Assembly (NCBI GenBank): GCA_023250585.1
Contig: JAHFAK010000008.1
Coordinates: 4,846 to 11,905, forward strand
Length of the DNA: 7,060 nucleotides
Direction of reading: 5' to 3'
Source of the DNA: Deltaproteobacteria bacterium
GTDB taxonomy: Bacteria; Bdellovibrionota_F; JAHFAK01
Shown here in pieces: positions 3 through 4,030 of the stretch (within the stretch, counting starts at the first letter, position 1; the number at the start of each line of letters is the position of its first letter). The position numbers and the translations under genes were made by a program. The notes under the pieces are model-generated. The model was not told where the DNA came from. It worked only from the letters and a program-made list of their open reading frames with translations, and did no database searches.

Positions 3-2231
3 TTATAGAAAATTTAATGGATCTATGTCAATTTTTAAACTCACCTGTGGAGGCTTATCTTTCTGGTTTTCGAGGTATTTATCGAGATAGAGATCCAGGC
101 TTTGGGCATTTTTTCCCTTGATTAATATGCTCCATCGATACTTGTCGTTAATTTTGTAGATAGGACACATAGCAGGACCGAGCAGAATAATTTTTTCTGC
201 AAAATGTGGATTGGTGTCCCGAATCGTTGAAAGCGCATGGGCAGCTTGATATGCCGCAGTTTTTGTATATCGTTCGTTTACTCCGGATATTCTTATATTT
301 GCGAGGCGCGAATACGGCGGGTAGTCGAGTTCTTTTCGATACGTGAGTTCTTGCTCATAAAAGGCAACATAATCATGTGTCTGAGCTTTTATTATGCTGT
401 ATTGACTCGGATTAAATGTTTGAATAATAACTCGACCTTTTTGCTCGCCCCTCCCGGCCCGCCCTGCAACTTGTGTAATAAGTTGAAACGTTCGCTCGCA
501 GGCTCGAAAGTCAGGAATTGTAAGCGTTAAATCAGCATAAATAATTCCTACGAGTGTGACTTCAGGAAAATCAAGGCCCTTTGCTATCATTTGAGTTCCA
601 ATGAGAATATCTATTTCCCCTTTTTTGAACAGCTCATGAAACCGCTCTGTTGTACCCTTTTTTTTTGTAGTATCTGAATCCATTCTGAACAGTTTTGCAT
701 CAGGAAATTTTTGTTCTAGTTCATGGTGGATTCGCTCTGTTCCAAGGCCAATTTTGGTAACCGCATGTTTTCCGCAGTGATAACATTTATCGGTAAATTC
801 TTCGGTATATCCACAGTAATGGCACAGGAGCGTATTGATTCCTTGATGATAGGAAAGCGAAACGCTACAGAACTTGCATGTTTTAATTGAACCGCATTTG
901 TTGCAGAGTATAAGCGAAGAAAATCCTCGGCGATTCAAAAATAAAATGGTTTTTTCACCGGTATCTAAATTTTTTCTAATTTCATCTTCAAGTTTTTCTG
1001 AAATAATAGGTGTTTCCCCAAATGCTTTATCTTCATCTTTCATGTCAATAATTTCAGCTTTTGGCGGAAGAGCCTGGGTAACACGTTCAGGAAGATGGAG
1101 AAGGACATATTTACCTAAATGAGCATTGAAATATGATTCGATTGATGGCGTCGCAGAACCAAGAATTACGGTACATCCAAATATTTTTCCTTTCATAAGC
1201 GCGGTATCGCGGGCATTGTAGAGGAGCAATGAGTCTTGTTTGTACGTGGTTTCATGTTCTTCATCAACTACGATTAATTGTACTTCAGGAATAGGCAAAA
1301 GAACGAGAGATCGAACTCCAATCATAACACGCATTGTTCCTAGCAAAATTTTAACCCACCTTTCACACTTTTCGTCTTCAGTCATTTTTGAATGAAATAC
1401 AGCAACCTGAGGGCCGAAACGTCCGGTTACAATTTCAATGAGCTGCGGAGTGAGTGCAATTTCCGGGACAAGCATAATGGCTCTCGCTTTGCTATTATGC
1501 TTGAGAAGATATTCAATTGATCGAAGATATACTTCTGTTTTGCCGCTTCCTGTAACGCCATGAAGAAGAAAAGGAGAGAATGAATGCGTGTCAATTCCTC
1601 TTTGCAACTCGGCATATGCCCTTTCTTGATGTGAATTTAATCGAGGAATATTCGAGAAAGGGTACGTATGGTCCAAAAGAGGATTTCCATCAAGCGAACT
1701 TTCTATAAAAGGCGCTTGGAATATTGTTTCTATGAATCCCATGGACTCTAATTCTTGAAGATAGGGAAAGAGTTTGTCGATTTTTGTTTTTTTTTCAATC
1801 GTTTTTTCTGATAAAATTTTCTTTGAAGAAAAAGCGTTTAAAATAATTCGATGTTGTTTTTTCAGCAGATTATCATCTCTTGTTTTTTCTGTTAGTTTAA
1901 CTTTTTTTGTTAATCTCTTCGCTATTTTATTAGGAAGGCTATGCCATATCACACGAGGAAAAGGATATTTATAATAACTCGCTAGCCAGGAATAAAGCTT
2001 GATATCATTCTCTCGACATAAGGGATTTTCATCGAGAATTGATTCAATGGGTTTGATTTCATAACTTTTTTCTAGAACATCTTGCGTGCTAACAATAAGC
2101 CCTATTTTCAAAGTTCCATTGAGAGGAGCAACAACGCGTTTACCCACCGCAACCTGGTTTTCCAAATGAGCAGGAATAGAATAGAAAAACGAATGATCCA
2201 GAGAAAAGTTGAATACTATACGAGCAAACAT
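3..2231 (-). CDS. priA: Primosomal protein N' (replication restart helicase PriA)
   Basis: This is a complete 742-residue protein, close to the usual PriA length. PriA is a cytosolic 3'-5' superfamily 2 helicase that recognises stalled or collapsed forks and starts primosome assembly so that DnaB can be reloaded. The N-terminal DNA-binding region is about residues 1-105. The helicase core shows Walker A GVTGSGKT (225-232), the DEEH box (323-326), GSATPS (358-363), GTQMIAKGLDFPEV (545-558) and QVAGRAGRG (587-595). Eight cysteines at 443, 446, 452, 455, 470, 473, 483 and 486 form the two zinc sites typical of PriA. The start is firm because the N-terminus (MFARIVFNF) matches the family and the ATG overlaps the preceding stop codon as TAATG. 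No good ribosome-binding site precedes it, so translation probably depends on coupling to the upstream LolA-like gene. Nothing is missing or broken. Confidence 0.97.
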   Translation of the reverse strand: MFARIVFNFSLDHSFFYSIPAHLENQVAVGKRVVAPLNGTLKIGLIVSTQDVLEKSYEIKPIESILDENPLCRENDIKLYSWLASYYKYPFPRVIWHSLPNKIAKRLTKKVKLTEKTRDDNLLKKQHRIILNAFSSKKILSEKTIEKKTKIDKLFPYLQELESMGFIETIFQAPFIESSLDGNPLLDHTYPFSNIPRLNSHQERAYAELQRGIDTHSFSPFLLHGVTGSGKTEVYLRSIEYLLKHNSKARAIMLVPEIALTPQLIEIVTGRFGPQVAVFHSKMTEDEKCERWVKILLGTMRVMIGVRSLVLLPIPEVQLIVVDEEHETTYKQDSLLLYNARDTALMKGKIFGCTVILGSATPSIESYFNAHLGKYVLLHLPERVTQALPPKAEIIDMKDEDKAFGETPIISEKLEDEIRKNLDTGEKTILFLNRRGFSSLILCNKCGSIKTCKFCSVSLSYHQGINTLLCHYCGYTEEFTDKCYHCGKHAVTKIGLGTERIHHELEQKFPDAKLFRMDSDTTKKKGTTERFHELFKKGEIDILIGTQMIAKGLDFPEVTLVGIIYADLTLTIPDFRACERTFQLITQVAGRAGRGEQKGRVIIQTFNPSQYSIIKAQTHDYVAFYEQELTYRKELDYPPYSRLANIRISGVNERYTKTAAYQAAHALSTIRDTNPHFAEKIILLGPAMCPIYKINDKYRWSILIKGKNAQSLDLYLDKYLENQKDKPPQVSLKIDIDPLNFL

Positions 2232-3193
2232 TATTTATTACCAAGCGAATATCGTGTTTTCACTTGGTAGGTATACAATGCTACTGTATCCTTTTTGTCA
2301 ATGGGATGCGGAGTTATTTTTTGGGAAGGAAAAGAACTAAAAGGTGAAAGATTAAAACGATTTTCATCTATATTTTCTTGTCGAAATGATGAAATCGTAT
2401 ACGTGAGTAATCGTGTATCATTATTATAGACTTCTATTTCTTGAGGGTAAATTTTAAAGAGAGAGTAATTATTGTAATATTCGGTAAAGCGCTCATTTCG
2501 TTCATTTTCAATAATTGTTTTAACAGGGAGGAATGTTTCTTGATCAAACCAAATTTGGATTCGTTGAGAAGAAATTTGTTTTTCTTCGCCTATCGCGCAA
2601 TAGACTTCTAGATCTTCAGGTATTGTCGTTTTTTCGCGCACTGGAAATGAATTTGGTTGAATTTTAACATTGAGTCCATTGAGAAAAAGCAATGCTTCTT
2701 TCGCATTTGTCCGTGTAAGTAAACTATAGAAAATAGGTTCATAAAATTGGCCACGAGAAGTTATGATATCATTAAGAGTGGTTAAGGATCTGCCGTTATT
2801 TTTTATTGAGATTTGTTTTCCTGAAAGATGTTCTGGGACCTCTATAAACGTTAGCGAGCTTCCTTGTAGATCCGTTGTTTCCTTTATTTCATGGGGAATG
2901 CTATCATAAATATCTTTTTCAATTGTTGCCGTGCTTTTTATGACGAAACTTCGAGGTATTGATTGGTAATGAGCGTAAAATTTTTTTAGAATATATTCGG
3001 AATCAAAGTCTGCATACGCAGAAACGGTGAGCACGATAGAAAACAAAAAAAATAAAATATAGGAACCTCTGAAAAAGGTCCATCTGTGTTGTTGCACACA
3101 AAAGTCACAATCCTCACATACTATCTGAGTATGCTCCGGTTGTGACTTTGCGTGCGCCTTACATCTGGACCTTTTTGAGAGGTTCCCTAGCAT
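2231..3193 (-). CDS. Predicted exported LolA-like (outer membrane lipoprotein-sorting type) protein with an N-terminus built from a palindromic element
   Basis: The reading frame has 320 codons. Residues 45-58 are strongly hydrophobic and end in an AYA motif, giving a probable signal peptidase I cleavage after residue 61. The mature part (about 259 residues) has no cysteine lipobox at its start and is rich in beta-strand-like stretches. The pattern ILKKFYAHYQSIPRSF near the mature N-terminus, and later IQIWFDQETFLPVKTIIE, resemble the LolA/LolB-like periplasmic fold that carries lipoproteins. This assignment is by general resemblance only. Residues 3-44 are encoded entirely by repeat copy 1. 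The true start is uncertain: the ATG at 3193 has no ribosome-binding site. The GTG at 3097, inside the element, would give a 288-residue protein with a better proportioned signal peptide (MQQHRWTFFRGS then the hydrophobic core), with a GAGGA 13 bases upstream. The stop overlaps the priA start. A periplasmic or secreted protein of unknown role is the fallback. Confidence 0.75.
   Translation of the reverse strand: MLGNLSKRSRCKAHAKSQPEHTQIVCEDCDFCVQQHRWTFFRGSYILFFLFSIVLTVSAYADFDSEYILKKFYAHYQSIPRSFVIKSTATIEKDIYDSIPHEIKETTDLQGSSLTFIEVPEHLSGKQISIKNNGRSLTTLNDIITSRGQFYEPIFYSLLTRTNAKEALLFLNGLNVKIQPNSFPVREKTTIPEDLEVYCAIGEEKQISSQRIQIWFDQETFLPVKTIIENERNERFTEYYNNYSLFKIYPQEIEVYNNDTRLLTYTISSFRQENIDENRFNLSPFSSFPSQKITPHPIDKKDTVALYTYQVKTRYSLGNK
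3062..3187 (-). repeat. Palindromic MITE-like element, copy 1 (126 bp)
   Basis: The ends are inverted repeats of about 21 bp (GGAACCTCT...GGTCCA) with one internal mismatch. Inner arms (3094-3110 with about 3140-3155) and an apical stem (CATACT/AGTATG) fold the whole unit into one long interrupted hairpin. TA lies on each side (3060-3061 and 3188-3189), which fits a TA target duplication as made by IS630/Tc1-mariner-type transposases. The unit is too short to encode a transposase, so it would have to be moved in trans. It is about 88 percent identical to copy 2, in the same orientation. Its length is exactly 42 codons, and one minus-strand frame is open throughout and continues into the LolA-like gene. 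The strand given is that of the surrounding genes. Confidence 0.88.
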
Positions 3194-3250
3194 TATGAAT
3201 TTTTTAGAGAGTCCTGTATTTTGTGATCACTTTTTACTAAGAGAAATGAA

Positions 3251-3275
3251 GAGAGCTACTATTTAAGTAGCTCTC
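3251..3275 (-). terminator. Hairpin terminator after the HU gene
   Basis: A perfect 10 bp stem (GAGAGCTACT paired with AGTAGCTCTC) encloses a 5-base loop and begins about 20 bases after the HU stop codon. On the minus strand it is followed by the T-rich tract TTCATTTCTCTT rather than a pure T run. It probably ends or attenuates the HU transcript before the LolA-like gene. The broken T tract could allow some readthrough. Confidence 0.65.
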
Positions 3276-3294
3276 AATCATGATACGTTGTTTA

Positions 3295-3573
3295 TTATAA
3301 CGTACTTTTAAAGCCAGGAGCAGGTTTAAAACCAACGGTCCTGCTTGCCTTGATCTTAATTTCTTCACCCGTTTGTGGATTTCTTCCTTTACGAGCTTTT
3401 CTATTCTTAACTGTCCATGTGCCGAATCCAGGATACGTAAACCGCTTATCCTTTTTGATTCCTTTGGTCAGTTCTTGAAAAACGCAATCACAAAGATCGT
3501 TAATTGCGGTTTTTGAAAAACCTTGTTTCTTTCCGAAGTTCCACACGCATTCAATTAATTCTGCTTTAGTCAT
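3295..3573 (-). CDS. HU/IHF-family nucleoid DNA-binding protein
   Basis: This is a complete 92-residue protein of the normal HU length. HU-type proteins are small dimers that bind and bend DNA in the nucleoid and assist replication, repair and recombination. Residues 1-45 form the helical dimerisation part, starting MTKAELIECV. The segment FTYPGFGTWTV (45-55) is the first beta region. RKARKGRNPQTGEEI (58-72) contains the family signature with the GRNP arm that enters the minor groove, and the C-terminus is VGFKPAPGFK. Three cysteines (9, 28, 30) in the helical part are uncommon for HU. The start is set by an excellent AGGAGGA seven bases upstream. The gene has its own strong promoter and a hairpin terminator, so it is probably a well-expressed single-gene unit. 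HU cannot be separated from an IHF-like paralogue here; HU is favoured. Confidence 0.95.
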   Translation of the reverse strand: MTKAELIECVWNFGKKQGFSKTAINDLCDCVFQELTKGIKKDKRFTYPGFGTWTVKNRKARKGRNPQTGEEIKIKASRTVGFKPAPGFKSTL

Positions 3574-3580
3574 GGATGAC

Positions 3581-3587
3581 TCCTCCT
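3581..3587 (-). promoter_or_regulatory. Ribosome-binding site of the HU gene
   Basis: AGGAGGA on the minus strand lies 7 bases before the ATG. It is a near-perfect Shine-Dalgarno sequence, much stronger than anything upstream of mutS, priA or the LolA-like gene, and it fixes the HU start. Confidence 0.85.
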
Positions 3588-3628
3588 AAATAAAAGGGTT
3601 AAAACTAAAACTACGCTTACGAGTGTAA

Positions 3629-3657
3629 ATAATAAGGAAGCGAGAAAATCATGTCAA
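3629..3657 (-). promoter_or_regulatory. Sigma70-type promoter of the HU gene
   Basis: On the minus strand a perfect TTGACA (3657-3652) is followed, after exactly 17 bases, by TATTAT (3634-3629). Transcription would start near 3622 and give an untranslated leader of about 50 bases. The promoter lies downstream of repeat copy 2, so HU expression should not need readthrough from rpmB. Confidence 0.85.
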
Positions 3658-3699
3658 GCAAATAAAGAGTATATCTGCATCTGAGAGTATTATGCTTTA

Positions 3700-3824
3700 G
3701 GAACCTCTGAAAAAGGCCCATCTGCATCGTTGCATGTAAAACCACAATCCTCACATACTATCCGAGTATGCTCCGGTTGTGTCTTTACATGCGCCTCGCA
3801 TCTGGACCTTTTTGAGAGGTTCCC
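3700..3824 (-). repeat. Palindromic MITE-like element, copy 2 (125 bp)
   Basis: This has the same structure and orientation as copy 1: terminal inverted repeats GGAACCTCT...AGAGGTTCC, TA on both sides (3698-3699 and 3825-3826), an inner stem (GCATGT paired with ACATGC, perfect here) and the same apical stem. It differs from copy 1 at about 14 bases plus a one-base deletion. It occupies the space between the rpmB stop and the HU promoter, and its right-hand TA lies inside the rpmB stop codon. In an rpmB transcript it would form a long 3' hairpin, which might protect or terminate the message. On the minus strand an ATG at 3735 opens only a 12-codon frame that stops just outside the element. Confidence 0.88.
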
Positions 3825-4030
3825 TAAAAGGCGAGTTTTCCAGAGTGTGCTTTAATAAGTTTTCCTGAAGTAATGCATGAAGCACATGCGTAGATTCTTT
3901 TTGCTGCTCCATTGATTATTGCGTGAACCTTATGAATATTGGGTAACCACACTGTCTTTGTTTTATTGTTGGCATGGCTTACTTTATTTCCTCGTAAAAT
4001 TCCCTTGCCGCACAACTCACATTTTCTCAT
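3824..4030 (-). CDS. rpmB: 50S ribosomal protein L28
   Basis: This 68-residue protein is a complete bacterial L28, a small basic component of the large ribosomal subunit that binds 23S rRNA. It begins [10 protein letters not shown] and contains the family segments VSHANNKTK (17-25) and WLPNIHKV (28-35). Cysteine pairs at 4/7 and 49/52 make it a zinc-binding form. An upstream extension of the frame to 4198 exists, but it overlaps the mutS coding region and does not look like L28. The ATG at 4030 is preceded by GGAGG five bases away, so that start is chosen. The stop codon TAG is partly made by repeat copy 2: T and A are the flanking TA and G is the first base of the element. The last residues (HSGKLAF) go a little past the common ending at about KA. 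rpmG, its frequent partner, is not adjacent. Confidence 0.95.

Follow-up and report, generated by a model that had tools for sequence, protein, structure and literature searches.

ERIC has been in typing use for decades and, to our knowledge, it has been described without a demonstrated mobiliser. It is known from Enterobacteriaceae and Vibrionaceae (PMC10969869), and when located within mRNA it affects transcript stability (PMC10969869, PMC2229807). Most copies of QMITE2 in Coxiella lie within 3' untranslated regions (PMC2229807, PMC10969869), and as of 2007 the mode of transposition of such elements was called open (PMC2229807). The locus analysed here is a stretch of 7,060 nucleotides (the window) from a Deltaproteobacteria bacterium, the genome assembly of which comprises 2.24 Mb in 164 contigs and is 96.7% complete. 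The window contains genes for PriA, the HU protein, ribosomal protein L28 and MutS, plus a gene without a Pfam match whose LolA-like identity is a guess, and it carries two copies of a repeat that is best assigned to a genuine, MITE-like and formerly mobile family that combines IS5-type ends with an ERIC-like hairpin core.

The first-pass annotation of the window had reported two palindromic units in the same orientation, 88% identical and bounded by terminal inverted repeats of ~21 bp, and both observations were confirmed. The hairpins occupy positions 3062-3186 (125 bp) and 3700-3823 (124 bp) on the plus strand, their 26-nt arms are complementary for 88% and 85%, and RNA folding gave free energies of -59 to -71 kcal/mol (z about -10 to -12), with no shuffled sequence folding equally well. 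The expectation that the genome would contain further copies was also correct. By BLAST, 23-24 copies, some full and some partial, were recovered from the whole genome. With a covariance model built on the core, 38 copies scored E<1e-6, and after them came a partial match at E=0.004. Searching the genome_contigs collection with a 17-mer from the terminal inverted repeat marked 58 stretches, most of them without an inverted partner. The hairpins had been taken for the complete mobile unit, and this part did not hold. When the genome-wide copies were aligned in one orientation, conservation extended 27-28 bp past the right arm, and this tail, ...GAGTTTTTCAGAGAGTCC, was kept in 35 of the 38 copies. 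The tail terminus TTTTTCAGAGAGTCC corresponds to the left end GGAACCTCTGAAAAA in inverted orientation. In a second subfamily the left end reads GGRACCTCTAAAAACTA and the tail end TAGTTATTAGAGGTGYCC, both ends being altered jointly, and this co-variation of tail end and left end between the two subfamilies (CTCTGAAAAA versus CCTCTAAAAACTA) is as expected of paired terminal repeats. The full units in the window therefore run on the plus strand from 3062 to 3214 (153 bp) and from 3700 to 3850 (151 bp), with tails at 3187-3214, ending in the third inverted copy of the terminal repeat (TTTTTTAGAGAGTCC), and at 3824-3850. Some copies have shrunk, leaving, for example, a short hairpin (contig C98, 1376-1433) or a left end beside a tail (C111, 917-951). 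Of note, another palindromic repeat, with ends TACTAAGTTGCATGCAAACG... and ...ATGCAACTTAGTATAA, abuts a shrunken copy on contig C43 (~1700-1890).

Both hairpins had been described as sitting between TA dinucleotides, and these had been read as a target duplication made by an IS630/Tc1-mariner-type transposase. A TA does precede both copies in the window, and CTA follows the right arm of both hairpins, which would favour this reading. However, the left TA forms the last two bases of a 4-bp duplication and the right TA lies inside the conserved tail, and across the genome TA flanks are rare, preceding the left end in 9 of 38 copies and following the hairpin in 7 of 38. The actual duplication is 4 bp long and surrounds the full unit, with TATA (3058-3061) and TGTA (3215-3218, one mismatch) around copy 1, and TTTA (3696-3699 and 3851-3854) around copy 2. 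Genome-wide, it was exact in 9/38 copies (shuffled mean 1.2) and present in 17/38 when one base of slack was allowed (shuffled mean 3.6), so that roughly half of the family lacks a clean duplication; in 10,000 shuffles neither count was ever attained. Moreover, DDE_3 is matched just once in the genome, by a 182-aa fragment for which no matching ends were found. An IS630/Tc1-mariner-type MITE that duplicates TA is thus very improbable, and the ends together with the size of the duplication resemble IS5-family elements instead. What the annotation had said of a non-autonomous, MITE-like element with inverted ends was borne out, as the repeat is short, non-coding, multicopy and dispersed, and has both terminal inverted repeats and target-site duplications.

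The insertion points can also be read from the genes on either side. As it stands, the gene upstream of copy 1 (2231-3193, minus strand) appears as a mechanically called 320-aa frame that begins within the element and reads through in frame, giving a chimeric N-terminus; its original GTG start has likely been cut off and lies beyond the far side of the element. L28 (rpmB) has acquired seven additional residues and a new stop from the tail of copy 2 (3824-3850), which on the minus strand encodes HSGKLAF followed by a stop. The flanks were joined in silico, as opposed to being observed as empty sites. Removing 3062-3214 together with one copy of the duplication restored the interrupted upstream frame, which then reads GTG-ITKYILFFLFSIVLTVSAYA with a normal-looking signal peptide, and removing 3700-3850 made L28 terminate at ...SGKLIKA-stop, its normal C-terminus. 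Excising just the 126-bp hairpin would not have this effect. These joins also bear on the idea that the copies are static repeats whose spread is due to recombination or gene conversion rather than to transposition. That some copies are without duplications would fit this idea, but the flanks of different copies are unrelated to one another, the ends are precise and bordered by 4-bp duplications, and flank joining restores genes, which makes spread without transposition exceedingly improbable.

The distribution of the copies is far from even. Whereas the flanking DNA is 86% coding, 36 of the 38 copies are intergenic, and 11 of these 36 lie between convergent genes. Using genes called by a simple longest-frame method (at least 90 codons), an end of the element was found to abut a stop codon in 24/38 copies, compared to 4% of the TA-containing, AT-rich noncoding 4-mers in the same loci, and three copies contact two stops, one on each side. 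Of the 20 cases at a left end, 17 have an intact stop that ends before the element begins, within the duplicated target or next to it, indicating that the stop belongs to the original gene, and in the other three the first G of the element completes a TAG. We infer that insertion duplicates an AT-rich 4-bp target with TA, that such a target would often be part of a TAA or TAG stop codon, and that the gene would keep its stop because the target is duplicated; the insertion would therefore leave the protein unchanged, be tolerated, and persist. A duplication that regenerates the stop at preferred stop-codon sites would be a simple reason for elements piling up at gene ends. As to the cause of this placement, site preference of the transposase and selection are inseparable in the present data.

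Another way to account for the same positions is that the repeat is a selected RNA or 3'-end element, such as a terminator, an mRNA stabiliser or a processing site, which is kept after stops because it is helpful, mobility being secondary. The copies do lie directly after stops, more often with the left end facing the gene (17 left-only versus 4 right-only), the hairpin is strong, and its loops are fixed while its arms are compensated. The effect of ERIC on mRNA stability and the mostly 3' untranslated location of QMITE2 (PMC2229807, PMC10969869) point in the same direction. However, target duplication and neutrality at stop codons account for the position without any function, the orientation bias comes from few copies, and the share of intergenic copies between convergent genes argues against it as well, so that we regard a selected RNA element as an unlikely, if serious, alternative to a MITE tolerated at gene ends.

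With regard to mobilisation of such a MITE, we propose that each copy is non-coding DNA that would be mobilised in trans by an IS5-family transposase through its outer inverted ends, GGAACCTCTGAAAAA on the left and GGACTCTCTGAAAAA, inverted, at the tail terminus. Together with the hairpin discussed below, this IS5-mobilised, ERIC-like hairpin MITE is in our opinion the probable explanation of the family. A genome that carries a MITE frequently also contains a partner transposon whose ends match, but this is not strictly defining and the partner is often lost. The earlier remark that no transposase accompanies the element was correct within the searches made here. An IS element with matching terminal repeats was sought in the own genome, and the transposases found there, an IS701-like split gene, an IS1634 transposase and the DDE_3 fragment, are all without matching ends. 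Searches of the assembly (96.7% complete; protein search without a positive control) yielded no IS5 transposase, and for this reason the candidate mobiliser was deduced from ends in other bacteria. The transposases on contigs C103 (IS701-like, split frame) and C116 (IS1634) were rejected as mobilisers, since the repeats that flank them mismatch. On C103, the region 699-2763 holds the two-frame IS701-like gene between identical 16-bp inverted sequences (ACAATACCTTCGCCAT) as well as a helix-turn-helix-like frame, and the contig end has other sequence past a run of N.

Several other bacteria contain elements with ends of this type. In Tamilnaduibacter, an element begins with the same end GGAACCTCTGAAAAA, and CTAG and TTAG precede GGAACCTCTGAAAAAG... 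and an open frame that starts with MSQISFAE at a contig end. This start aligns with those of annotated IS5-family transposases of Pseudomonas plasmids, at weak E-values (0.2-0.8). A 1.14-kb element in Endozoicomonas with ends GGAGCCTCTGAAAAAC/GGAATCTCTGAAAAAC holds a decayed transposase, the best NCBIfam match of which is IS5 (NF033581, E=2.8e-37, slightly under the curated cut-off). The IS5-family element ISPa41 has ends GGAATCTCCGAACAA/GGATGCTCCGATCAA and lies between TTAG and TTAG. Like an IS5-derived MITE, the window element thus has IS5-family-like ends and an AT-rich, YTAR-like duplication of 4 bp. Candidatus Peribacteraceae STB_185 contains 122-bp elements, identical to one another, that have the same ends and the 4-bp duplications CTAA, CATA and TGAA but an unrelated interior; these are an independent use of the same end type. 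On plasmids the window element was not found, and phages gave three weak core matches only.

Between the ends lies the long hairpin. Among 26 copies from the own genome the arms vary with compensation, 20 of the 43 pairs being changed on both sides, and the near-invariant stretches on the minus strand, CAGAT, AAGGCG, AACCGGAG, TGAGGA, CAACGA and AGATGG, are mostly unpaired or mismatched parts of the hairpin. They include two conserved internal loops, which read GGAG/TGA and AAGGCG/CAACG on the minus strand. In copy 1, the apical loop consists of TCA at 3114-3116 (TGA on the minus strand) and CTCC at 3134-3137 (GGAG), and the second loop of TTGTTG at 3089-3094 (CAACAA on the minus strand, CAACG in most copies) and CGCCTTA at 3155-3161 (TAAGGCG). 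The second loop of copy 2 reads CAACG (3728-3732) and CGAGGCG (3792-3798) on the minus strand. Arms that change freely around fixed loops point to a protein or RNA partner, and the loops may be under selection. G.A mismatches in the loops could single out the minus strand as the preferred structured strand; we do not claim this, because transcription of the copies that follow stop codons mostly runs in the opposite sense. Rfam contained no family for the element and gave two weak matches to plant miRNAs, which we dismissed as chance hairpins.

To follow the core beyond this genome, a covariance model, R1, was trained on the own copies and on sequences chosen for having the core motif, with ERIC left out. 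R1 matches the minus strand of the window at 3100-3151 (61.2 bits) and 3737-3788 (57.1 bits). At E<=0.001 it matched 22 of 386 genomes, several with many copies (the best 15 matches per genome were scored). The strong matches each occupy the central part of a hairpin of roughly 110-150 nt, and the ends of these hairpins are unrelated; a few single weak matches are not placed in this way. High-copy hairpin families with the core occur outside the phylum of the window in G043 (at least 15 copies), G171 (13), G179, G248 and G272. The core pattern TCCTCACNTAC..GTANGCTCCGG matched 17 viral-contig stretches, all within long hairpins with different ends and including the enterobacterial type. One of these core-bearing hairpins in the IMG/VR viral contigs is located within a predicted frame start, beside phage genes. 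A stretch containing this enterobacterial type (...TTAGGCTATTTTATTTGCCATTTT...) had matches in 5375 of 5426 complete E. coli genomes, at about five places in each, and the listed E. coli matches of this type have no annotated feature beneath them.

ERIC itself provided a comparison outside the training set. The ERIC between pgk and fbaA of E. coli was matched by R1 over the apical GGAGCTTAC..GTAAGTGA (17.8 bits, E=0.0012), the match being confined to model positions 15-37 with the outer arms unmatched. In the ERIC sequence, AAGGCG precedes GGAG by 25 nt and GAACGCAG follows about 10 nt after TGA. Judged from sequence, this loop match supports kinship, short of proof. Such likeness could also be convergence on a favourable hairpin instead of descent. 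Convergence would suit the complete lack of resemblance in outer ends and arms from one genome to the next, the shortness of the match to ERIC, and the selection of core members by pattern. On the other hand, the second loop lies in the flanks, outside the model, and was not used in the search, yet [AG]AGGCG was present on the left in 11/17 genomes, CAACG on the right in 11/17, and both in 9/17 (1.0, 1.0 and 0.05 in shuffles), at a near-constant offset in these nine, some of which share a family and are thus partly non-independent. The Pseudomonas elements, in turn, resemble the window element in their ends, loops and size of duplication: they have the same ends, the 4-bp duplications TTAG, TTAA and ATAG, the motif AAGGC, a GGAG/GCAG loop with TGAG, and AACGC. 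Convergence alone therefore seems doubtful to us. The hairpin module is common to repeats of other phyla, probably including ERIC, and is probably an old selected unit carried by different ends. The stronger proposal, that ERIC and the window element belong to one ancient cross-phylum superfamily in which the loop-bearing hairpin is selected and repeatedly swaps ends and transposases, is put forward tentatively, with slightly less than even confidence. If true, the IS5-type ends provide a concrete candidate mobiliser for an ERIC-like element.

A cross-phylum family with such loops was not encountered in the open-access literature, which is weak evidence, and nothing relevant turned up on the core motif, the end sequence, or YTAR in combination with a stop codon. 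The element class itself is known; the stop-codon placement, the combination of features and the cross-phylum core appear new. Compared to IS5-family elements (the NF033581 group, e.g. ISPa41), the window element has the same terminal repeat type, GGAAYCTCYGAAMAA, and a 4-bp duplication, TTAG in ISPa41, but it encodes nothing and is only ~150 bp long. With RUP and the Correia/NEMIS MITEs it shares a short, non-coding, mainly intergenic sequence with inverted ends and a long hairpin (PMC2229807), whereas those elements differ in their end sequences and have termini or targets of TA; RUP is linked to IS630-Spn1. QMITE2 of Coxiella burnetii, compared by description and not by sequence, is likewise a hairpin MITE, mostly of 3' untranslated regions, but it has direct repeats of 7-9 bp and is ~190 bp long (PMC10969869). 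The Pseudomonas and Tamilnaduibacter hairpins agree in ends, 4-bp duplication and internal loops, and differ in having no tail; those of Pseudomonas measure 139-140 bp. ERIC (IRU, RU-1) is a non-coding, imperfect hairpin of ~126 bp, scattered over intergenic regions, with an identical apical loop (GGAG-CTTAC..GTAAG-TGA), AAGGCG in the left arm and a near-identical AACGCAG in the right arm, where its second loop reads GAACG, one base off the CAACG found here. The window element likewise has a GGAG/TGA apical loop on a CNTAC/GTANG stem and an AAGGCG/CAACG second loop, in keeping with an ERIC-like element. We rejected an assignment to ERIC proper, as the outer arms and TA termini of ERIC are not those of the window element, which has IS5-like ends, a 4-bp duplication and an extra tail. 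With its IS5-like ends and a 4-bp duplication that can be measured, a family with the loops of ERIC opens mobilisation to direct testing.
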